From a virus: a DNA stretch of 20,949 bases. Shown one piece after another: positions 1 through 13,243 of the stretch. Position numbers and translations under genes: made by a program. Below the pieces are notes generated by a model. The model ran no database searches and had not been told where the DNA came from. It saw nothing but the letters and a program-made list of their open reading frames with translations. Positions within the stretch are counted from its first letter, which is position 1. Each line of letters begins with the position of its first letter. The stretch lies in the IMG/VR virus record IMGVR_UViG_3300005288_000117, positions 1 to 20,949 of that record; one strand, written 5' to 3'.

Positions 1-2004
1 ATCTATACCTCGTATTTTACATCAACCAAGACAGAAAGCAACGATGTAATTGGTGGGTTTGGTCTCGGTTCGAAAACCCCGTTCTCCTACTGCGACAGCT
101 TCAACATCCGCACACGTAAGAACGGCTTTGAATACAACTTCAATGCCTACATCAACATGCAAGGTGAGCCAGCCACATCGCTGATCAGCAGTAGCCCAAC
201 AGACGAACCTAATGGCGTGCGCGTGACTGTGCCTGTCAAGACAACTGACTTCAATCAGTTCAACAATGATGCGGTGAAGGTCTTCAAGTGGTTTGTTATC
301 ACCCCTGAAATCGTCGGTGCTACGATCAGCATTGACAACAGCAAAGCGATTCGCCTTGCCAAAGATGGATCGTTCTGGTCGACCTACTCGAAGGATGGTT
401 GGGAGCGCAACACGATTACCGCAGTGATGGGCAACGTTGCGTACCACGTGCCTGGCGTGTCTGAGACCTTTGCCTCACACTTCAACTCAAGCGAATGCGC
501 GTTCTTCAGGAACAACACCTTAACAGTCATGTTCGACATCGGTGAACTTGATGTTGCGGCTTCGCGTGAAACAATCTCCTTTGATGAAGAAACTGAAAAG
601 CAGTTCATCAAGCGCGTTAAGGAAGTGATCAGTCAGTTCTGTGCTGAAACACAAGCCAAACTTGACAACGAGATCGACAACGTTCCTGACGCAATCGCAC
701 TGGTTGAGGAAAGTGTAGGTTCATGGGCTTATGACATGTTTACCTACAAAATGGAAAGTATCCATACCCTTGCTTCAAACAACTTCATCACAGTAATGCG
801 TGATGCGTTTGAAGACTCCGACGATACTATCGACACCTACTACTTTGCCGAGAACCGTCGCAGTCAGGTGAAGCGGCATTCACTCGACTACATCGCACAA
901 ATGACCTTCAGCAAGTTGCGCCAGCGTAAGATCGTTATCTTGCAGGGCAACGACAAAGGCTTCCAGCGTGTTGCCCGTAATCTGGTCAAAGAGGCTGTCA
1001 ACTTCTTTGGTGTGTTCTTCACCAATGCAATGGTTGAACAATCAATCAAAGATGAACTGATTGAAGCTTTCGGTGAGTACATTGAATTCGAAGTTGCGGC
1101 CGACCTTCTGGCTATCGATAAGGCTGAGCGTAAAGCCCAACGCGATGCACAGAAACTCCTGCAAGGGCCTACAATACGTGCAAAAGCCGCTGCCCGTATA
1201 GGCGCTGACAGCGTGCGTGTGAAGCTGTTTGAAGTGATCAAAGACCCAACAACTGGCATCCTCACCTACAGCTACCAAGACAACAAAGTCATCACCGACG
1301 ATGCGGTCAAAGGTAAGAAGTACATGATCCTGCAGGAACGTTACGGTGAAAGTGAAGTGTCTATCAAGCGTCCTGCAAAGGCACTTGTCGGTAGTCCAGC
1401 AGACGTCAACGATGGGTTGGAGTTCAATCACGGTGTTTGCACTATCAGTGCAGGTTCTCTGTATGCGTTCTGCCGCATCTTCAAGCTTGACGCATTGATC
1501 ATTATCAAAGCGCCATCGCTGAAGAAAGTTGAAAAGATGTTTGGTGCAGATGCAATCAAGGTCATTGACACCTACGACATCGGTTATATCCGCGCCATTG
1601 CGTTGAAACGTAGCCTTGACCAGTATGCCGACCAGGTCGATATCAAATCGATCATGGGTAAATACACTGATTACGATTCCACTCGGTTGTCTGATGAGAT
1701 TATTGGTCGCGCCGAACGTTACATCGTCGATAACCCTAACAGTGATCTAGCGAAGGCTATTGAAATCGTATCGACACTGACCAGTTGTGATGATTACGAC
1801 AAAATTCCATACAACGTTCGATTCCTCGAAAAGGACGCCACTTACAGCCCTTATCAACTTGCCGTGTCCGCAACGAACAAGGCAAAAGCGATCTTCGACA
1901 GCGTACAAGCTGATTACCCGATGGTGTTTGATGCCGATGAAGGTAGTGTCATCGATCAGTATATCCTGCACATGGATAAACTTCGCGAATTGAATGCATT
2001 CTGA
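1..2004 (+). CDS. rIIA: RIIA-like protein, GHKL ATPase (5' end missing)
   Basis: The reading frame is open from the first base of the window and ends at TGA 2002-2004, giving 667 visible residues. The N-terminus lies upstream. Visible residues 18-30 read GGFGLGSKTPFSY, the glycine-rich ATP-lid motif of GHKL ATPases in the form typical of phage RIIA proteins; the preceding N-box is outside the window. T4 RIIA is about 725 aa, so roughly 60-100 residues may be missing. In T4, RIIA and RIIB are membrane-associated and control lysis timing and exclusion by the lambda Rex system. Here an RIIB-like gene follows after 100 bases, which supports the pairing. The first internal ATG (157) is not the true start, because the ATPase motif lies before it. 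The biochemical activity is inferred from the family. Confidence 0.88.
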   Translation: MYTSYFTSTKTESNDVIGGFGLGSKTPFSYCDSFNIRTRKNGFEYNFNAYINMQGEPATSLISSSPTDEPNGVRVTVPVKTTDFNQFNNDAVKVFKWFVITPEIVGATISIDNSKAIRLAKDGSFWSTYSKDGWERNTITAVMGNVAYHVPGVSETFASHFNSSECAFFRNNTLTVMFDIGELDVAASRETISFDEETEKQFIKRVKEVISQFCAETQAKLDNEIDNVPDAIALVEESVGSWAYDMFTYKMESIHTLASNNFITVMRDAFEDSDDTIDTYYFAENRRSQVKRHSLDYIAQMTFSKLRQRKIVILQGNDKGFQRVARNLVKEAVNFFGVFFTNAMVEQSIKDELIEAFGEYIEFEVAADLLAIDKAERKAQRDAQKLLQGPTIRAKAAARIGADSVRVKLFEVIKDPTTGILTYSYQDNKVITDDAVKGKKYMILQERYGESEVSIKRPAKALVGSPADVNDGLEFNHGVCTISAGSLYAFCRIFKLDALIIIKAPSLKKVEKMFGADAIKVIDTYDIGYIRAIALKRSLDQYADQVDIKSIMGKYTDYDSTRLSDEIIGRAERYIVDNPNSDLAKAIEIVSTLTSCDDYDKIPYNVRFLEKDATYSPYQLAVSATNKAKAIFDSVQADYPMVFDADEGSVIDQYILHMDKLRELNAF

Positions 2005-2104: not shown

Positions 2105-3163
2105 ATGACTAAAGCTCTCAACACTCCAATCGAAACCAAGATTGCTGCCCATGACATGGTTGCAAATGGCTGCACCAAGACTGACGTTTCGGCTTACTAT
2201 GGAGTGTCTATCCGTACTCTCGGTCGTTGGATCGAACAAGCGAACGCATCGGCTGCCGCTAAGCCTGTGAAAGTCAAGAAATCCGCATCGAAAAAGGCTG
2301 TTGTGTCTGGCGTTGCAGGTGGTTACGCTGACGGTGATGCTTATCGTCAACCAGTTGTCGCAGATGAAGACGTCGAATACCGCGTACTGGCAACTCGCAA
2401 ATCGATCAGTCTGTCTCGCCTGGTGAATGGCTCGGTTGACAGTTCGGTTGTGATTGATCGCAGCGCCGACAACTTCACTGAAGTGTTCGACCTGATCGTT
2501 TCCAGCGGTATGGCACAGGATGCACTTGAACAAGCATACTTCATGTGCACGCCGAAGAAAATGGTTGAAGGTTTCACCAACGGCAAGTTCAAGGTCGACG
2601 TGGTCAAAGGTACGATCCTGTACACGCCTGACGTAGGTACACCGTTCGAAGTCAGCGGTAAACTGAGCCAGCGCATCATCGACACGATCAAGAATGACGG
2701 CGTTGAAGGTGTTGAGTCGCTGTTCAACTTCCTGGACAAGCTGATGCTGAACCCAAGCAACCGTTCGGTCAACGAACTGTACGGTTTCCTGACTCACAAC
2801 GACATCGAGATCGCACCAAACGGTAACTTCTATGCATGGAAAGTCGTGCGTAGCGATTACTTCGACAAGCACTCCAACACTATGGATAACTCTGTAGGTA
2901 ATGAAGTGCGGGTTGCTCGTAACCAGGTGAACGAAGACAGCAATGTGACCTGCTCGTATGGGCTGCATGTCTGCGCCAAGTCGTACATCAGCTCGTTCGG
3001 TAGCAGCGATGATCGTGTGGTGCGCGTTGAAGTTCATCCACAAGACGTTGTTGCGATCCCTGCTGACTACGGCGATTCGAAAATGCGTTGCGCCGGCTAC
3101 AACGTTGTTGAAGACGTGACTGATGCATTCGTCAAAGAACTTGGTGGTGGCAACTGGTACTAA
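2105..3163 (+). CDS. rIIB: RIIB-like protein with N-terminal helix-turn-helix
   Basis: 352 aa. ATG 2105 is preceded by TTGAGGAT, a good ribosome site. Residues about 9-44 form a helix-turn-helix-like segment (TKTDVSAYYGVSIRTLGRWI) as in transposase or regulator N-termini. A Lys/Ala-rich linker follows (53-66). The C-terminal half (about 205-340) has the signatures of phage RIIB proteins: the NGNFYAWKVV stretch (239-248) and the SYGLHVC motif (284-290), then an acidic tail region. T4 RIIB is about 312 aa, so this version is slightly longer. RIIB partners RIIA in lysis control and membrane protection. The HTH suggests possible nucleic-acid binding, which is inference only. The gene is flanked by a promoter-like site and a strong terminator, so it may be its own transcription unit. 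Confidence 0.85.
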   Translation: MTKALNTPIETKIAAHDMVANGCTKTDVSAYYGVSIRTLGRWIEQANASAAAKPVKVKKSASKKAVVSGVAGGYADGDAYRQPVVADEDVEYRVLATRKSISLSRLVNGSVDSSVVIDRSADNFTEVFDLIVSSGMAQDALEQAYFMCTPKKMVEGFTNGKFKVDVVKGTILYTPDVGTPFEVSGKLSQRIIDTIKNDGVEGVESLFNFLDKLMLNPSNRSVNELYGFLTHNDIEIAPNGNFYAWKVVRSDYFDKHSNTMDNSVGNEVRVARNQVNEDSNVTCSYGLHVCAKSYISSFGSSDDRVVRVEVHPQDVVAIPADYGDSKMRCAGYNVVEDVTDAFVKELGGGNWY

Positions 3164-4028: not shown

Positions 4029-4329
4029 ACACCTATTGCTTGGCTTGCTTGAGGCTGAGTCAGCCGCTCCTACGAACACAACTGACGGAGTTGCGATTGC
4101 TGATGCTCCGTTCAAGTCGGGTAGCATTGCAGGTCACAAGTACGTTGAAGTCGATCATGATACCTACGTGCGCTGTCAGCTAGGTAAGGTCCCATACGCT
4201 AAGTGGGATGGCTACATCGAGGATGAGCAACTGCGCACCTTCGTCCAGAAACATTATTCCAATGCCAAGTCGCTGTTGGTCGTCAACAAGACATCAGGCG
4301 TTGCATCATTCTTGCGTAAGCCCAAATAG
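4012..4329 (+). CDS. Hypothetical protein overlapping the upstream gene
   Basis: 105 aa from ATG 4012, which overlaps the previous gene by 17 bases. GAGATCGGGAAC gives a fair ribosome site. The protein has an amphipathic N-terminal helix (MQSLIEHLLLGLLEAE), an Ala/Thr-rich linker, and a compact domain with YVEVDHDTYVRCQLGKVPYAKWDG. I do not recognise it with certainty. Its position next to two conserved phage-type genes suggests a conserved phage role. The open frame extends to 3976, but that would lengthen the overlap without a better ribosome site. Confidence 0.6.
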   Translation: MQSLIEHLLLGLLEAESAAPTNTTDGVAIADAPFKSGSIAGHKYVEVDHDTYVRCQLGKVPYAKWDGYIEDEQLRTFVQKHYSNAKSLLVVNKTSGVASFLRKPK

Positions 4330-4339
4330 GAGAAGTCGC

Positions 4340-4732
4340 ATGTTCACTATGATTAAACCCTACATTATCGGTGGTGTGGGGATTCTGATTGCCGTGCTGT
4401 TCGCATCAACCATGTACTTCATCAACGCGACCAGTGATGCTAAGGTCGAAGCTGCGGGCTTTCAAAGCGATCTGTCTGCGCTGCAATCGAAGGTCGAAGA
4501 GCGCAATGCCGAGATCAAGCGAGATGCGGCCAATCAGGCTACTGTAGGTGTTGAGCGAGCTAAGACTAATCAACAGTTCCTCGATTCGAAGCGCTCTGTT
4601 GAGGGGTTCAAGGGGCGTGAGGCTATATTGCGTGCTAAGCCCGAACTGACCGAGAAAATGATCAACAAGAGCTTTGCCAACTTCGCTGATGAGATCTCAT
4701 GCGCGACTGGAGATGCAACACCATGCAAATGA
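4340..4732 (+). CDS. i-spanin (Rz-like inner-membrane lysis protein)
   Basis: 130 aa from ATG 4340, with AGGAGAAG seven bases upstream. Residues about 7-29 form one transmembrane segment (IGGVGILIAVLFASTMYFI). A long Ala/Glu/Lys/Gln-rich periplasmic coiled coil follows, as in Rz-type i-spanins. The next gene starts inside its last codons and encodes a lipoprotein of the o-spanin type, so the classic Rz/Rz1 pairing is present. Spanins join inner and outer membranes and fuse them after peptidoglycan degradation, releasing virions from Gram-negative hosts. No holin or endolysin is recognisable in this window. The call rests on topology and gene order because spanins diverge strongly in sequence. 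Confidence 0.75.
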   Translation: MFTMIKPYIIGGVGILIAVLFASTMYFINATSDAKVEAAGFQSDLSALQSKVEERNAEIKRDAANQATVGVERAKTNQQFLDSKRSVEGFKGREAILRAKPELTEKMINKSFANFADEISCATGDATPCK

Positions 4733-5064
4733 AAAAACTGTTGATGGCCTCGATTTTTTGTGCGATGCTGGTTGGTTGTGGTCATGACCCTGTCAAGTCA
4801 CCTGAGCCACAATCTGTCATCTCGCACCCTGCACTACCAGCGCCTGTTGGTAAGTACAACCTGCACTGGAAGGTTATCCCTCAGGATGATCATGTCTATG
4901 TCGCTCTGACCTATGATGAATCGTTGCAACTGAAGACAATGATTGAAGACCTGTTGCGCTACACGCGTGAAGCAAACTCGGTGATGTGTTCATACAGACG
5001 CGATCTGAAAGAGACTCGATGCATCCCTATCGGAATTGCAAAACCTATAGGAAATGGCAATTAG
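4723..5064 (+). CDS. o-spanin (Rz1-like outer-membrane lipoprotein)
   Basis: 113 aa from ATG 4723, overlapping the i-spanin gene end by 10 bases. GGAG lies ten bases upstream; ATG 4729 and ATG 4699 are alternatives. The N-terminus MQMKKLLMASIFCAMLVGC is a lipoprotein signal with lipobox LVGC (Cys19). A proline-rich stretch follows (DPVKSPEPQSVISHPALPAP), as in many Rz1-type proteins. The mature part of about 95 residues is longer than lambda Rz1 and has a C-terminal helical region with paired Cys. The predicted location is the outer-membrane inner leaflet, where it would bind the i-spanin coiled coil. Confidence 0.72.
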   Translation: MQMKKLLMASIFCAMLVGCGHDPVKSPEPQSVISHPALPAPVGKYNLHWKVIPQDDHVYVALTYDESLQLKTMIEDLLRYTREANSVMCSYRRDLKETRCIPIGIAKPIGNGN

Positions 5065-6317: not shown

Positions 6318-6449
6318 ATGAAACAGCCCGAGAAGTTTTCTTTTCGAAAGCTTTGCAAGTATATGCTATACACAGCAGCAATCATTGTGTGTAGCTACGT
6401 TGCAGGCTTAGGCATCGGTTGGCTCATCTTGAAGATCGTCAACCTGTGA
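6318..6449 (+). CDS. Single-pass membrane protein, 43 aa
   Basis: ATG 6318 starts two bases after the lipoprotein stop. The N-terminus is basic (MKQPEKFSFRKLCKY) and residues about 17-40 form one hydrophobic helix ending GWLILKIV. The stop TGA overlaps the ATG of the next gene (TGATG), so translation of the two is coupled. The ribosome site is weak (GGGGATC). Function unknown. Confidence 0.6.
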   Translation: MKQPEKFSFRKLCKYMLYTAAIIVCSYVAGLGIGWLILKIVNL

Positions 6450-6799
6450 TGAGTCGGGTCTATTCAGTCTACAAGGGCGAGCGTGATGGTTTCTTGGTGT
6501 ATATCGGTACTACGATGCAGAAACCATCAGCGCGCTTTCGCTGGCACAAAGCGAACGGTAAAGATCTGAAGTTCACTGTGTTGCATCAGTTCGACAACCA
6601 CTCGGCAATGCTCGATAAGGAATTCGAACTGATCAGCCTTTACAAACCCGTACTGAACAAGATCGTTCATCGTAAACAGAACCTCAATGTCAAACTGACA
6701 CCCGCTGAAGTTCAGTCGCGTGTTGGTCTGGCAGGGTGGTGTCAATCATGCTTGAAGCGCCGTGTCAACGCGGGCTTCAGCAAATGTGGTTGGTGTTGA
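6449..6799 (+). CDS. GIY-YIG nuclease-like protein with C-terminal Cys4 finger
   Basis: 116 aa from ATG 6449, coupled to the previous stop. Residues 4-10 (VYSVYKG) and 17-22 (VYIGTT) give the Y-x-x-Y ... Y-I-G core of GIY-YIG nucleases. R29, R31 and H33 follow in the helix that usually carries the conserved Arg. E58 in MLDKEFELISLYKPVLN fits the metal-binding Glu before a [LI]I...P..N motif. C98xxC101 and C113xxC116 form a probable zinc finger at the end. GIY-YIG proteins in phages include homing (Seg-type) and DNA-degrading or repair enzymes. This one is short, so it may be a minimal, stand-alone nuclease with a zinc DNA-binding tail. The target is unknown. Confidence 0.78.
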   Translation: MSRVYSVYKGERDGFLVYIGTTMQKPSARFRWHKANGKDLKFTVLHQFDNHSAMLDKEFELISLYKPVLNKIVHRKQNLNVKLTPAEVQSRVGLAGWCQSCLKRRVNAGFSKCGWC

Positions 6800-8282: not shown

Positions 8283-8516
8283 ATGACTAACAAGAAACCA
8301 GCACAATACCCAGACACCAAGCAAGGTGCTATCGACTGTCTGAAGAACGAATCGACCTACGACATGACGCAGGTCAAGCAAGTAATCCCGGACCCATGGT
8401 TCAAAGGTGTCTGGGCCGTCGATCTGTACAGCGGCACTCGTGTCATCGTCTACCTCATGGGTTACGGTGACAACAAAGACAAGACCTACAACGATTTTGA
8501 AGAAGGTGAAGCGTGA
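8283..8516 (+). CDS. Hypothetical protein, 77 aa
   Basis: ATG 8283 is six bases after GAGGTG. A small soluble protein with TKQGAIDCLKNESTYD in the N-terminal part and a beta-rich middle (GVWAVDLYSGTRVIVYLMGYG). The end is acidic. It is first in an operon that also contains the next gene, whose GTG overlaps its stop. No family recognised. Confidence 0.65.
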   Translation: MTNKKPAQYPDTKQGAIDCLKNESTYDMTQVKQVIPDPWFKGVWAVDLYSGTRVIVYLMGYGDNKDKTYNDFEEGEA

Positions 8517-8854
8517 TAGTCATCGAGAAAGACTGGTTTCATAACGAGCGTTCATACAACGCGTTCCTGCTTGCGGTTGACCTCGCTCTGAAGCTCGAAG
8601 CGCTGCATTCTAAAGGTGCAATGATCTTCGATGAAGGCGACATGATCGACGGTAAATGGCGCCTTCACCTCGACGGTGACCAGTCGAACGTTGGTTGCAC
8701 CTTCGGCAACTGTACCCAGCTTTATGCGGGCTGCACTCATGATGCCGAAAGTGGTAAAATCTGGTTGACCAAGAAGATGGTCAACGAAGCGTTCGCAGAT
8801 GTCAAAGTCGTGATGCCGCAACACATTATCTCTCTCAAGGATCTGACGAAATAA
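8513..8854 (+). CDS. Hypothetical protein, 113 aa, GTG start
   Basis: GTG 8513 overlaps the preceding TGA and has GAAGGTGAA upstream. The protein is soluble, with an N-terminal helix (YNAFLLAVDLALKLEALHS) and a Cys-containing middle (NVGCTFGNCTQLYAGC) that could hold a metal or disulfide. The C-terminal part is helix then strand. I do not recognise the family. Confidence 0.65.
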   Translation: MIVIEKDWFHNERSYNAFLLAVDLALKLEALHSKGAMIFDEGDMIDGKWRLHLDGDQSNVGCTFGNCTQLYAGCTHDAESGKIWLTKKMVNEAFADVKVVMPQHIISLKDLTK

Positions 8855-8912: not shown

Positions 8913-9749
8913 ATGACCGAGTTCGTATTCCGTACTATCGCCATTGGCAGCCAAACAATTCGCACCGCAACACGCCCAGGTAAAGCGCATCTCACGCCGC
9001 TGTTAGTCTTCAACGGCATTGGTGCAAGTCTTGAGCTGATGTTCCCTATCGTCAATGCAGTCGACCCTGATGTGGAAGTGATTGTGTTCGACGTGCCTGG
9101 TGTGGGTGGTTCGTCTACGCCTGCATTACCTTATCGGTTCTCATGGCTAACCAAGATCGTCAGTCAGATGCTTGACGCGCTTGATCATGGACAGGTCAAT
9201 GTGATCGGTATTTCATGGGGTGGTTTCCTTGCTCAGCAGTTTGCCTACGACTATCCACTACGTTGCTCGAAGCTGATCCTTGCTGCGACGTCTGCTGGCT
9301 TTGCTAGTGTGCCGCCCTCTGCGCGTGTGCTAGCGTTGATGGCAAGCCCTAGACGTTATACTGATCACGAGTACGGCGCAAAGATCGCACCGGAGATCTA
9401 CGGGGGCGAATTCCGCACCAACAAGGAGCTGTGTAAGGCGCACGCCGCCAAGATGAAGTCGACTGGTGGTTTAGGTTACTACTATCAGATGATGGCGATT
9501 TATGGTTGGACAAGTATTCACTTGCTTTATAAGTTGAAACAGCCTACACTTGTTCTCGCAGGCAACGATGATCCCCTGATCCCGTTGGTGAACATGCAGG
9601 TACTTGCGAAGTGGATTCCTAACTCGCAACTCCATGTTTTCGATGATGGTCATTTGTTTCTGATCACTCAGGCCAAAGCAATCAATCCTCTCATCATGCA
9701 GTTCCTGTATGGTGAGACAACTCAGCAACTATTGAAGGAAGCTGCATAA
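8913..9749 (+). CDS. phaZ: PhaZ-like intracellular PHA depolymerase (alpha/beta hydrolase)
   Basis: 278 aa from ATG 8913, with GGTGGAAA upstream. An alpha/beta hydrolase whose sequence closely follows the intracellular medium-chain-length polyhydroxyalkanoate depolymerase of pseudomonads (about 283 aa). Matching segments include LTPLLVFNGIGASLEL (27-42), VFDVPGVGGSSTP (58-70), GQVNVIGISWGG (93-104), PTLVLAGNDDPLIPL (211-225) and DDGHLFLIT (244-252). The nucleophile is Ser101 in GISWG; Asp220 and His247 complete the triad, each one position before Ser102, Asp221 and His248 of Pseudomonas putida PhaZ as I recall them. The host enzyme hydrolyses stored PHA granules to hydroxyacids. Here it could release host carbon during infection. 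Base use looks like its neighbours rather than GC-rich Pseudomonas DNA, so transfer is probably old. No other pha genes are present. Activity on PHA is inferred. Confidence 0.88.
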   Translation: MTEFVFRTIAIGSQTIRTATRPGKAHLTPLLVFNGIGASLELMFPIVNAVDPDVEVIVFDVPGVGGSSTPALPYRFSWLTKIVSQMLDALDHGQVNVIGISWGGFLAQQFAYDYPLRCSKLILAATSAGFASVPPSARVLALMASPRRYTDHEYGAKIAPEIYGGEFRTNKELCKAHAAKMKSTGGLGYYYQMMAIYGWTSIHLLYKLKQPTLVLAGNDDPLIPLVNMQVLAKWIPNSQLHVFDDGHLFLITQAKAINPLIMQFLYGETTQQLLKEAA

Positions 9750-9913
9750 TGTACTTTAAAGTCCTCGCAATGCCTTTGAGCCGCACCGAAACCCTGTTCT
9801 CGGTAGTTGATGCTCACTTCAAATTCAACGAACCGTTCGCAACTGAAGCCCTGGCGCAAGTGCGTGCCGATGAACTCAACGCTGAATACGAACGCATCCT
9901 GGCTGTTCTGTAA
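9749..9913 (+). CDS. Hypothetical protein, 54 aa
   Basis: ATG 9749 overlaps the phaZ-like stop (TAATG) and uses AAGGAAGC in the end of that gene, so its translation is tied to the hydrolase. The product is small, with a beta start (MYFKVLAMPLSRTETLFSVV) and an Ala/Glu-rich helix. Function unknown. Overlap with the phaZ-like gene makes a shared transcript certain if both are expressed. Confidence 0.6.
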   Translation: MYFKVLAMPLSRTETLFSVVDAHFKFNEPFATEALAQVRADELNAEYERILAVL

Positions 9914-9922
9914 GGATTTGTG

Positions 9923-10129
9923 ATGATTCCTGGTGAAGAGATTCGAATTGACAGCTTGGGTAACGAGCGCTTCTGGTATGTGTCTCGACCTACCCAAGGT
10001 CTGATCAAATACATTGATGAAACTGGTGAGCTGTTCCATGTTCACCGTGCATTTGCTATGACGCTCGAACAGTACGAAGTTACTTGCAGAATGCGTGAAC
10101 GTGCCCGTATAATGTACGGCGCTGACTAA
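9923..10129 (+). CDS. Hypothetical protein, 68 aa
   Basis: ATG 9923 is six bases after AAGGA; GTG 9920 is in frame but too close to that site. Small soluble protein, beta-rich start (EEIRIDSLGNERFWYV) with a basic helical end (VTCRMRERARIMYG). It is the third gene of the phaZ-like operon. No domain recognised. Confidence 0.62.
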   Translation: MIPGEEIRIDSLGNERFWYVSRPTQGLIKYIDETGELFHVHRAFAMTLEQYEVTCRMRERARIMYGAD

Positions 10130-10158: not shown

Positions 10159-10587
10159 ATGAAGATCTCTAGCAAAAGCTGGCACTATCGTTTCAACCTT
10201 AAAATCCAGGGCGAAAAGTTCGAACACAAAGCTGAATGTGGACGGTTCACAACATGTAGCTACATCCGCACTTGCATCGCATCAGTGATTCAGGGTGCGT
10301 GGTTCGCGTTCCTCATCTGCATTATTGCAGCACTAGCCATCTTCATAGTAGGAAGTGCAATCTGGGTGCCAATCTCGATCTTCTTCCTGGGTGGTATACC
10401 CACAGGATCCCCGTTGGCAGCGGCATGTATAGTCTGGGCTCTGATTGCACTCGGTCTGTTGGTACTGATGTGGAAGCAGCAAGTCAGACCTTACTACAAT
10501 GCTAAAGTTCATCAAGAGCCGAACGTGTTCATCCAAGCTATCAAGGACAAACACGGTAAATTCTGCACTCGCGTAGAGCTTGTATAA
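10159..10587 (+). CDS. Multi-pass membrane protein with SWHYR motif
   Basis: 142 aa; GAAGAAG precedes ATG 10159. The cytoplasmic-looking start KISSKSWHYRFNLKI resembles a motif (S-W-H-Y-R) I have seen at the start of small membrane proteins in many phages. About three hydrophobic segments follow (roughly 39-63, 64-82 and 86-105), then a basic tail of about 35 residues. Cys27 and Cys33 sit before the first helix. The role is unknown in the family as far as I know. It ends just before the RtcB upstream region. Confidence 0.68.
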   Translation: MKISSKSWHYRFNLKIQGEKFEHKAECGRFTTCSYIRTCIASVIQGAWFAFLICIIAALAIFIVGSAIWVPISIFFLGGIPTGSPLAAACIVWALIALGLLVLMWKQQVRPYYNAKVHQEPNVFIQAIKDKHGKFCTRVELV

Positions 10588-10645: not shown

Positions 10646-11866
10646 GTGACCATTCAAAGTTATGAGATGATCGAAAGCTACGGTAAGCCGATCAAAGCCT
10701 GGACCCGTGGCGTGCTTGTTGAAGAGCAAGCCAAGGAACAACTGCGCAACGTCGCACAGATGCCCTTCATCCATAAGCATATCGCGGTCATGCCTGATGT
10801 ACACTGGGGCATGGGTGCGACTGTAGGGAGTGTCATCGCAACTAAAGGTGCAATCATCCCTGCTGCTGTAGGTGTTGACATTGGTTGCGGTATGATCGCT
10901 CAAGAAACCTCGTTGAGAGCGATTGACCTGCCAGACAGTTTGGCGTTGATTCGCAGTGACATCGAACGCGCTGTACCTCATGGTTTCGTGTCGACACCTG
11001 GTCGCTCGAAGAACGGTAGCTGGATGGTCGCGCCGAACTCTGCAATCACGCGTTACAGCGCTCTTGCTGATCGCTATGATGCGATTCTTGCCAAACACCC
11101 GCTGATCAACCAAAACAACCCGTTGAAACAAATGGGCACTCTCGGCGGTGGTAATCACTTCATCGAGCTGTGCCTTGATGAGCGTGACCATGTGTGGGTG
11201 ATGTTGCACTCGGGTAGTCGTGGTGCTGGTAACAAGATCGGTACATACTTCATCGACAAAGCAAAAGAAGAAATGGCGCGTCAGTTCATTCATGTGCCTG
11301 ACAAAGACCTTGCTTATCTGGTTGAAGGTTCTGAGCTGTTTGACGACTACTGTGAAGCGGTGTCGTGGGCACAGGACTATGCGATGCTCAACCGTCTGCA
11401 AATGATGGAGTTGACTCTCGGCGTGTTGCGCAAGCATCTGACTACATTCAGTTTGCAGAAGAGCGCGGTCAATGCTCACCACAACTACGTGTCCAAAGAG
11501 TTTCACTTTGGTTCTGATGTTCTGGTAACGCGTAAAGGTGCAGTCAGCGCGAAGGTTGGTCAACTGGGTATCATTCCAGGTAGCATGGGTGCGAAGAGCT
11601 TCATCGTTCGTGGTAAGGGTAACGCTGATTCGTTCTGCTCGTGTTCGCACGGTGCTGGTCGTGTCATGAGTCGCACCCAAGCCAAGAAGCAGTTCACCGT
11701 TGCTGACCATATCGAAGCAACCAAAGGCATCGAATGTCGCAAAGACAAAGAGGTCATTGATGAAACACCAGCGGCCTACAAGGACATCGAAGCTGTCATG
11801 GCTGCGCAGTCTGATCTGGTTGATATCGTTCATACCCTGCGCCAAGTAATTTGCGTTAAGGGCTAG
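10646..11866 (+). CDS. rtcB: RtcB-type RNA-splicing ligase
   Basis: 406 aa from GTG 10646 (GAAGAAGGAA upstream), nearly the length of E. coli RtcB (408 aa). RtcB joins 2',3'-cyclic phosphate or 3'-phosphate RNA ends to 5'-OH ends using GTP and Mn2+. The motifs are all present in order: DVHWGMGATVG (51-61), GVDIGCGM (76-83, metal Cys81), LGGGNHFIEL (166-175, His171), HSGSRGAG (188-195), HHN (278-280) and SHGAGR (334-339), where His335 is the guanylate acceptor. It therefore looks catalytically intact. In phages RtcB is thought to mend tRNAs or other RNAs cut by host nucleases, the job T4 gives to Pnkp and Rnl1. No archease gene is adjacent, as is usual for E. coli-type RtcB. Hairpin-containing sites flank the gene on both sides. 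Confidence 0.93.
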   Translation: MTIQSYEMIESYGKPIKAWTRGVLVEEQAKEQLRNVAQMPFIHKHIAVMPDVHWGMGATVGSVIATKGAIIPAAVGVDIGCGMIAQETSLRAIDLPDSLALIRSDIERAVPHGFVSTPGRSKNGSWMVAPNSAITRYSALADRYDAILAKHPLINQNNPLKQMGTLGGGNHFIELCLDERDHVWVMLHSGSRGAGNKIGTYFIDKAKEEMARQFIHVPDKDLAYLVEGSELFDDYCEAVSWAQDYAMLNRLQMMELTLGVLRKHLTTFSLQKSAVNAHHNYVSKEFHFGSDVLVTRKGAVSAKVGQLGIIPGSMGAKSFIVRGKGNADSFCSCSHGAGRVMSRTQAKKQFTVADHIEATKGIECRKDKEVIDETPAAYKDIEAVMAAQSDLVDIVHTLRQVICVKG

Positions 11867-11905: not shown

Positions 11906-11933
11906 AACAATCCATTTGAAGAAGGTCTATATC

Positions 11934-12434
11934 ATGAACCAAGAACAACCTGCAAAGTGCGTGCTGAAGCTCAATATGAACGTACTTGAAGCACTATTCC
12001 CTGAAGGCACAGAAGCCCGTGTACAGCTTCAGCAAGCGGTTCTGGCTGAGGTTTCGAAGACCTACGTCAAGCAAGCACTCAGCGCCGATGTGCAGGCGTA
12101 TCTGCGTACTCTGTCAAATGAAGTCAGCCAGGAAATCGACGTCAAGTCAGTGGTACAAAAGTACTTCGACACAAGTGCGGCATGGAACTCTACCACTAAG
12201 CTGAAACCTGGTACTGGTCTGGTTAAAGCAATCGCCACAGCGGCTGAAAATGCACTGAGCGACCAGTTCTATCAGACATTGAATGATCGGATTGAAGCTC
12301 AGGTCAAAGAATACACCGATCGACTTGACTCGCGTGTTGAATATGCCGTCAAGATGCGCATTGATCGACTGACCACTGACGCAATCAATGCTCGCGTTAA
12401 CGCCGCAGTTGAAGCAGCACGAGCGGCCCTGTAA
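11934..12434 (+). CDS. Helical protein, 166 aa
   Basis: ATG 11934 has GAAGAAGG upstream; ATG at 11916 would begin too near the hairpin. The protein is almost entirely helical, with heptad patterns through residues about 25-75 and 100-165 ([20 protein letters not shown]). It ends in Ala-rich helix, which gives a filamentous or oligomeric look. The N-terminus [20 protein letters not shown] is beta-like and short. No family is recognised; similar coiled coils occur in phage structural and scaffolding proteins. Its stop overlaps the next gene's start (TAATG). Confidence 0.66.
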
Positions 12435-12784
12435 TGGCTGACAAAGAGATCCTCAACAAGATGCATGAAGTAATCAACTCAATGGCTGCGATGCTGAATG
12501 AGTTGTCAAGCTGCAACAGCCCTGAACGGGAGTTGATGAATAAGAGTTGGACTAAGCTCAGCATTGCGATGACTGAACTTAACCAGCCACCTGCTTTGAT
12601 CACAGCCGAATTGGTAAAGCGCTTGCGTGAACACACGGGTGAAGGTTTGATGGCTTCTAAGAAAGCCCTAGTCCGATCCAATGGTAATTTCAATGATGCT
12701 GTTGAATATCTTCGCACTAGCGGGAATATCAACAACTTCTGCACGGACCAGAACCGTCCTGCACTAGGTCAGCGTCACAACTAA
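12434..12784 (+). CDS. Protein with EF-Ts N-terminal (UBA/TS-N) domain
   Basis: 116 aa from ATG 12434, coupled to the upstream stop. Residues about 56-97 follow the UBA-like N-terminal domain of elongation factor Ts: [20 protein letters not shown] (60-79), then [15 protein letters not shown] (83-97). The EF-Ts consensus as I know it is [20 protein letters not shown] followed by a similar acidic helix. In EF-Ts this domain contacts the G domain of EF-Tu. The EF-Ts core and coiled-coil domains are absent, and the first 50 residues form a separate helical region. It could bind host EF-Tu, mimic EF-Ts, or use the UBA fold for another partner. The neighbours (RtcB and a QueD-like gene) make a translation or tRNA theme attractive, but this is inference. 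Confidence 0.8.
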
Positions 12785-12799
12785 AGGTGTATTCACAAC

Positions 12800-13243
12800 A
12801 TGTACAAATCCACAAAGACTTTTGGTCATGAAGTTGGTCTAAGTTGCTGCTTTCGTCAACACCGCGCTGAAAGTCATTGTCGACTGCTTCACGGTTACGC
12901 TATCGCAGTGCGCTTTGAGTTCCAAGCTGAAGTGCTTGATGAGCGCAATTGGGTAGTTGACTTCGGTGGTCTGAAAGGTCTGAAGCAAATCCTCGAAGAC
13001 AACTTCGATCACACAATGTTGGTCGCTGAAGATGATCCGCATCTGGCTACCCTTCAGAACTTGCATGACATCGGAATTGCGCGTATCGTAGTGGTTCCTA
13101 AAGCAGGCTGTGAAGCGTTTGCTCACATGATCTTTGAAGTCACTGAGCAATGGCTACATGACGCAGGTTTCTCACCGCGTTGTCAGTTAAGCTCGGTCGA
13201 AGTCAAAGAACACGGTGCTAACAGCGCCATCTATTCAATGTAA
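12800..13243 (+). CDS. QueD-like 6-carboxytetrahydropterin synthase family enzyme
   Basis: 147 aa; AAAGGTG precedes ATG 12800. A 6-pyruvoyl-tetrahydropterin synthase/QueD fold, matching a subfamily I recall from phages and bacteria: STKTFGHEVGLSCCFRQHRA (4-23), SHCRLLHGYAIAV (25-37, catalytic Cys27), ERNWVVDFGGLK (48-59), NFDHTMLVAEDDPHL (68-82) and VEVKEHGANSAIY (133-145). The usual LHGH zinc motif is LHGY here, with other His nearby (His26, His31). QueD makes carboxytetrahydropterin, the first pathway-specific step from GTP to 7-deazaguanines. Products can modify tRNA (queuosine) or, in several phages, genome DNA (preQ0/archaeosine-type bases against restriction). No folE, queE or queC is in this window. 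Confidence 0.85.
   Translation: MYKSTKTFGHEVGLSCCFRQHRAESHCRLLHGYAIAVRFEFQAEVLDERNWVVDFGGLKGLKQILEDNFDHTMLVAEDDPHLATLQNLHDIGIARIVVVPKAGCEAFAHMIFEVTEQWLHDAGFSPRCQLSSVEVKEHGANSAIYSM

Follow-up and report, generated by a model that had tools for sequence, protein, structure and literature searches.

In Pseudomonas putida KT2440, the intracellular mcl-PHA depolymerase PhaZ carries a Ser102/Asp221/His248 triad and a FNGIG loop (residues 34–38) in which mutation of Asn35 abolishes activity, and its lid, with hinge residue Ser184 and segment YYWQLF (190–195), controls specificity (PMC12504323). Engineered deletions in this lid led to loss of activity in all cases, and a single hinge change in P. putida PhaZ, S184F, removes depolymerase activity and introduces esterase activity (PMC12504323). 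Intracellular degradation of mcl-PHA is apparently a Pseudomonas-specific trait (PMC12504323). In line with general knowledge, PHA synthesis and breakdown run side by side in P. putida (PMC3918157, PMC8764540). On the viral side, phage-borne phaC, phbB, fadJ and other genes have been proposed as auxiliary metabolic genes (AMGs) in PHA-producing mixed cultures (PMC12013262). A tblastn search for PhaZ in 50,697 annotated phage records returned only general hydrolases at 28–30% identity, and we found no report of a phage or viral PHA/PHB depolymerase in the open-access literature, although an earlier mention elsewhere is possible; an earlier note on the DNA described here, which knew of no characterised phage PhaZ, agrees with this outcome. 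To our knowledge, there is no cultured or characterised example of a phage mcl-PHA depolymerase as a class of storage-polymer AMG.

The window, i.e. the whole stretch of DNA analysed here, is an IMG/VR virus record of 20,949 bases. Its nearest annotated phage is pf16, a T4-like phage of P. putida (Chakrabartyvirus; PMC5587285), and the genes that matter for the argument are the following:

1–2004 (+): rIIA homologue, truncated by the window start, 43% identical to pf16 RIIA
2105–3163 (+): rIIB homologue, 64% protein identity to pf16, with 78% DNA identity across 630 bases
4208–5064 (+): two overlapping genes that match the Rz-like spanin pair of pf16 in the pf16 comparison
8513–8854 (+): phage gene flanking PhaZ on the 5' side, 40% identical to a pf16 hypothetical protein
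8913–9749 (+): phage PhaZ of 278 aa, homologue of intracellular mcl-PHA depolymerases, lid region at about residues 125–210
9749–9913 (+): 54-aa ORF, its ATG sharing a base with the stop codon of PhaZ (TAATG), no Pfam family
9920–10129 (+): small 69-aa ORF in the interval between PhaZ and the membrane protein, no family match
10159–10587 (+): membrane protein, the phage flank on the 3' side, 46% identical to pf16 YP_009595482
10646–11866 (+): RtcB-type RNA ligase, 83% identical to pf16 RtcB

The window and pf16 have rIIA, rIIB, the spanin pair, RtcB and several hypothetical genes in common, in partly collinear order, yet PhaZ is absent from the entire 158 kb of pf16 and is thus an accessory gene. 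Since pf16-like genes flank it on both sides while pf16 itself lacks it, PhaZ is a host-type metabolic gene within phage DNA. This bears out the earlier description of a gene lying among phage genes without host-like flanks: the genes around PhaZ have homologues in pf16, no host pha genes were found beside PhaZ, and no PhaC was found in the record. The chromosomal-type phaC1-PhaZ-phaC2 arrangement, which describes the chromosomal locus and not the enzyme, is likewise absent from the window. The phage is pf16-like and T4-related, and its host, as judged from relatives only, is probably a Pseudomonas, because pf16 as the closest known phage infects P. putida; the apparent restriction of intracellular mcl-PHA degradation to Pseudomonas (PMC12504323) agrees with such a host. 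The overlap with the downstream gene also reads as first described, with TAA at 9747–9749 and an ATG at 9749 that opens the 54-aa ORF, which suggests translational coupling of the two genes. A promoter matrix built on 11 annotated pf16 sites gave no hit near PhaZ, the few window matches above the shuffled maximum all lying away from it; sigma-70-like and terminator-like sites were no more frequent than by chance, and the window contains no Rfam families or tRNAs.

Four other genes of the window deserve mention in their own right. A putative endonuclease (6419–6799, +; PHROG 16880, E 2.8e-8) lies in the variable stretch that separates the spanin genes from PhaZ and is a possible agent of gene mobility. 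On the 3' side of RtcB, positions 11916–12434 (+) encode a PHROG 3806 protein of unknown kind with a homologue in a 116-kb phage (L084, 9483–9977, +), where it stands immediately 5' of PhaZ; in the stretches compared, it is the sole gene besides PhaZ common to both phages. A 116-aa protein (12434–12784, +) has an EF-Ts N-terminal (TS-N/UBA-like) domain (TIGR00116, E 1e-10, residues 55–99 only) and might act on EF-Tu or the translation machinery; a related 96-aa EF-Ts-N-like protein is encoded by another PhaZ carrier (L098, 1237–1527, +). Finally, positions 12800–13243 (+) encode a QueD/6-pyruvoyl-tetrahydropterin synthase homologue (PHROG 2389, Pfam PTPS), and a queuosine module is on record for pf16.

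The PhaZ protein itself matches TIGR02240 (NCBIfam, poly(3-hydroxyalkanoate) depolymerase, an equivalog model with a curated cut-off of 250.6 bits) at 421.6 bits (E 1.3e-126) over residues 4–272 of 278, as against 104 bits for the second-best model, a PcaD-type lactonase. Together with the tree placement given below, this score rules out that the protein is a generic esterase. The intact ORF is 63–66% identical to the Pseudomonas intracellular enzyme over its whole length, in line with the full-length match described in the earlier note, and the Ser101, Asp220 and His247 that the note had pointed out are invariant across 43 phage and 93 bacterial sequences (numbering in the window is that of KT2440 PhaZ minus one). 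The nucleophile sits in a GISWG elbow (G99-I-S101-W-G103, a GxSxG context), the FNGIG loop corresponds to F33-N34-G35-I36-G37, and N34, G35, I36, G37, Y189 and Q192, like the triad, never vary in this alignment. An AlphaFold2 model (pLDDT 85.3, pTM 0.86) gives an alpha/beta hydrolase with lid-like helices inserted between strands E118–124 and E212–217, and its PDB matches are alpha/beta hydrolases, among them a Bacillus PHB depolymerase.

It is the lid that calls for caution. In the window protein, S183 is kept and Y189-Y-Y-Q-M-M194 stands where KT2440 has YYWQLF, with Y189, Y190 and Q192 retained; this lid is one of those nearest to the bacterial form among phage copies. The lid-hinge positions are different in most phage copies and vary among the phage enzymes. 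Therefore, given that the lid controls specificity in P. putida and is systematically different in the phage forms, we call the window protein likely, and not certainly, a functional PHA depolymerase; with the diverged lid its substrate specificity may differ, and mcl-PHA hydrolysis is its presumed activity.

Phylogenetic analysis, set beforehand as the test that could refute the assignment, places phage and Pseudomonas PhaZ in one clade (100/100), not outside PhaZ and apart from two bacterial groups scoring about 305 and 200 bits. Within this clade, chromosomal PhaZ forms a sub-clade (99/100) outside of which the window protein and every other phage copy fall. Two label changes appear in the tree that the search returned, but likelihood is slightly higher when all phage copies are kept together (AU p 0.62). 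A tree with the window protein and chromosomal PhaZ as one clade or closest sisters is not rejected either (p 0.34), and the phage copies may or may not be strictly one clade. Phage enzymes and their chromosomal counterparts are fixed for different residues at five positions (105 F/A, 135 P/G, 136 S/K, 150 T/I and 181 M/V), which lie near the nucleophile and the lid, with four in the lid region. The phage motif occurs in 0 of 399 Pseudomonas-family genomes. The dN/dS ratio is 0.04–0.16 for within-group carrier pairs, and the GC content of PhaZ tracks that of each phage from 0.41 to 0.62. PhaZ is under long purifying selection in phages and is maintained there. It is an old, selected phage gene and not a recent pick-up.

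The reach of the equivalog model is a separate observation. Among bacterial PhaZ-like proteins (L132 and L133; bacterial genomes G235 and G232), one further group scores about 305 bits, over the cut-off, yet lies outside the phage and Pseudomonas clade, and another scores 180–240 bits, under the cut-off. TIGR02240 may thus also take in proteins that are not mcl-PHA depolymerases.

The gene had been presented as a single curiosity; it turned out to be one member of a phage-borne PhaZ family present in many phage lineages. Besides the window, 44 IMG/VR contigs carry PhaZ, and their names point to 22 metagenome data sets. A single protein query found one other viral contig and a profile-like query 35, and a phage-specific DNA motif (WGGFLAQQFA) found 40, nine of them new, whose copies align with the window protein along almost the entire length at 63–70% identity. 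All 35 carrier records tested exceed the TIGR02240 cut-off, with complete copies at 313–477 bits. By common flank genes, these carriers represent at least nine backgrounds that have almost nothing but PhaZ in common: the pf16-like window; a 116-kb phage; an 86-kb phage; phages of ~48 kb with 58% GC and a ZF40-like terminase; a large set of ~48 kb siphophages; a 22-kb contig; a 54-kb lambda-like phage; and phages of 85–92 kb and of 104 kb (phiPMW-like, 85–104 kb). Group representatives encode terminase, portal, head, tail or replication hallmark genes, and jumbo contigs of 228, 284 and 307 kb combine PhaZ with phage tail, tail-sheath or DNA-polymerase genes. The nearest annotated relatives of the hallmark genes are Pseudomonas phages in three groups (MR14/PAJU2, phiPMW of P. 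putida, and IME307); by the same measure, the carriers with the ZF40-like terminase show no clear Pseudomonas affinity.

No partner gene is conserved beside PhaZ across these carriers, two or three groups having small or endonuclease-like proteins in common, and neither phaC nor phaD flanks any of the 35 copies from the profile-like query; phaC is absent from all 25 carrier records checked. In the window and in the H and I groups, PhaZ belongs to a series of small genes that all lie on one strand and overlap at their start and stop codons. The layout of the 48-kb siphophage group is moron-like, unlike that of the window: PhaZ (L096, 9968–10801) is on the strand opposite to its neighbours, and a two-way terminator-like hairpin follows at 11176–11198. 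In a 15-kb contig of the siphophage group (L102, 2106–2903), stop codons interrupt the PhaZ frame, reflecting either a broken copy or a sequencing error.

The most probable reading of these data, and one that we hold with reasonable though not full confidence, is that PhaZ is a phage auxiliary metabolic gene for hydrolysing host mcl-PHA during infection. The enzyme would attach to the surface of mcl-PHA granules in the host and, acting as a serine hydrolase (S101-D220-H247) whose active site is covered by a lid, convert the polyester to (R)-3-hydroxy fatty acids. From these, the acyl-CoA synthetase and beta-oxidation of the host would supply phage replication with acetyl-CoA, reducing power and ATP, and the bulky granules would be removed as well. 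Because synthesis and breakdown run together in P. putida, additional PhaZ would favour breakdown; with its own enzyme, the phage might tip this cycle when chromosomal phaZ is limiting or shut off. Of the first interpretation, a carbon-release gene, the family assignment and the phage location stand firmly (TIGR02240 score, 100/100 clade, pf16-like flanks); mcl-PHA activity, granule targeting, timing and the benefit to the phage are, all four, what we infer. We would give even odds to a broader proposal, namely that the phage copies form a clade of mcl-PHA depolymerases that is specific to viruses and marked by characteristic residues in active site and lid, passed from phage to phage among unrelated phages including jumbo-sized ones, and a general route to the storage granules of Pseudomonas-type hosts.

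Other explanations fit part of the evidence. A minority possibility, unlikely but the most serious of them, is that the phage protein is a PhaZ-derived esterase with a new substrate, such as a short acyl ester, a signal lactone or a lipid, in which fold and triad were kept and the lid was changed. The five fixed differences, mostly in the lid region, and the variable hinge residues would fit such a change, and S184F alone suffices for the swap from depolymerase to esterase in P. putida PhaZ (PMC12504323). However, the tested copies score well over the TIGR02240 cut-off and fall within the PhaZ clade, no aligned sequence departs from Asn34, the NGIG core or Gln192, and several carriers are Pseudomonas-phage-like, so that mcl-PHA is the expected polymer.

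It is rather improbable that the protein is an active PHA depolymerase whose benefit is not carbon, i.e. that it removes granules obstructing lysis, virion assembly or the replication compartment, or counters PHA-based stress protection of the host. PHA granules are large intracellular bodies, and in the three carriers with contigs of 228–307 kb cell volume could matter; yet no lysis or assembly gene common to the carriers was found, and they have almost no neighbour in common. A moron acting in the prophage state, by which lysogenic conversion would alter PHA turnover of the lysogen and not lytic growth, is very improbable. It would suit the inverted siphophage gene with its two-way terminator-like site, the temperate nature of PAJU2, a relative of that group, and the integrase of one carrier (G821), but 24 of 25 records including the window, many of the records being fragments, lack a Pfam tyrosine integrase, and the same-strand, overlapping small-gene runs of the window, H and I groups argue against it. 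Lastly, viral metagenome contigs can be chimeric and the protein is 63–66% identical to the host enzyme, but host contamination, a chimera or a recent passive pick-up of chromosomal phaZ without phage function is most improbable of all and was rejected on the pf16-like flanks on both sides and the absence of phaC (0/25 carrier records, with neither phaC nor phaD near the 35 copies), in agreement with a window protein outside the chromosomal clade (99/100), a phage motif in 0/399 Pseudomonas-family genomes and a dN/dS of about 0.1 between carriers.

For many bacteria in the environment and in industry, PHA is one of the main carbon stores. If, as we propose for PhaZ, a depolymerase comes with the phage, infection would draw on this store, which would matter for the movement of carbon through soils and reactors and for what PHA production loses to phages. 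Furthermore, the phage copies provide a set of naturally diverged mcl-PHA depolymerase homologues with altered lids.

The phage genes of PHA-producing mixed cultures (PMC12013262) are, like PhaZ, candidate AMGs of PHA metabolism, but they are synthesis genes, and nowhere does the paper's main text use the term depolymerase. The polysaccharide depolymerases of phages (tail spikes, EPS depolymerases) have only this term in common with PhaZ, being virion-borne enzymes of unrelated fold that act on capsule or EPS. The closest counterpart is KT2440 PhaZ (TIGR02240), which the phage protein resembles in full-length homology, the triad, the essential Asn of the FNGIG loop, the lidded alpha/beta-hydrolase fold and the lack of an obvious N-terminal signal peptide. 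The phage form differs from it in being encoded away from phaC1, phaC2 and phaD, in five clade-fixed substitutions, in a shorter and different C-terminal tail, and, in many phage copies, in a divergent lid hinge.
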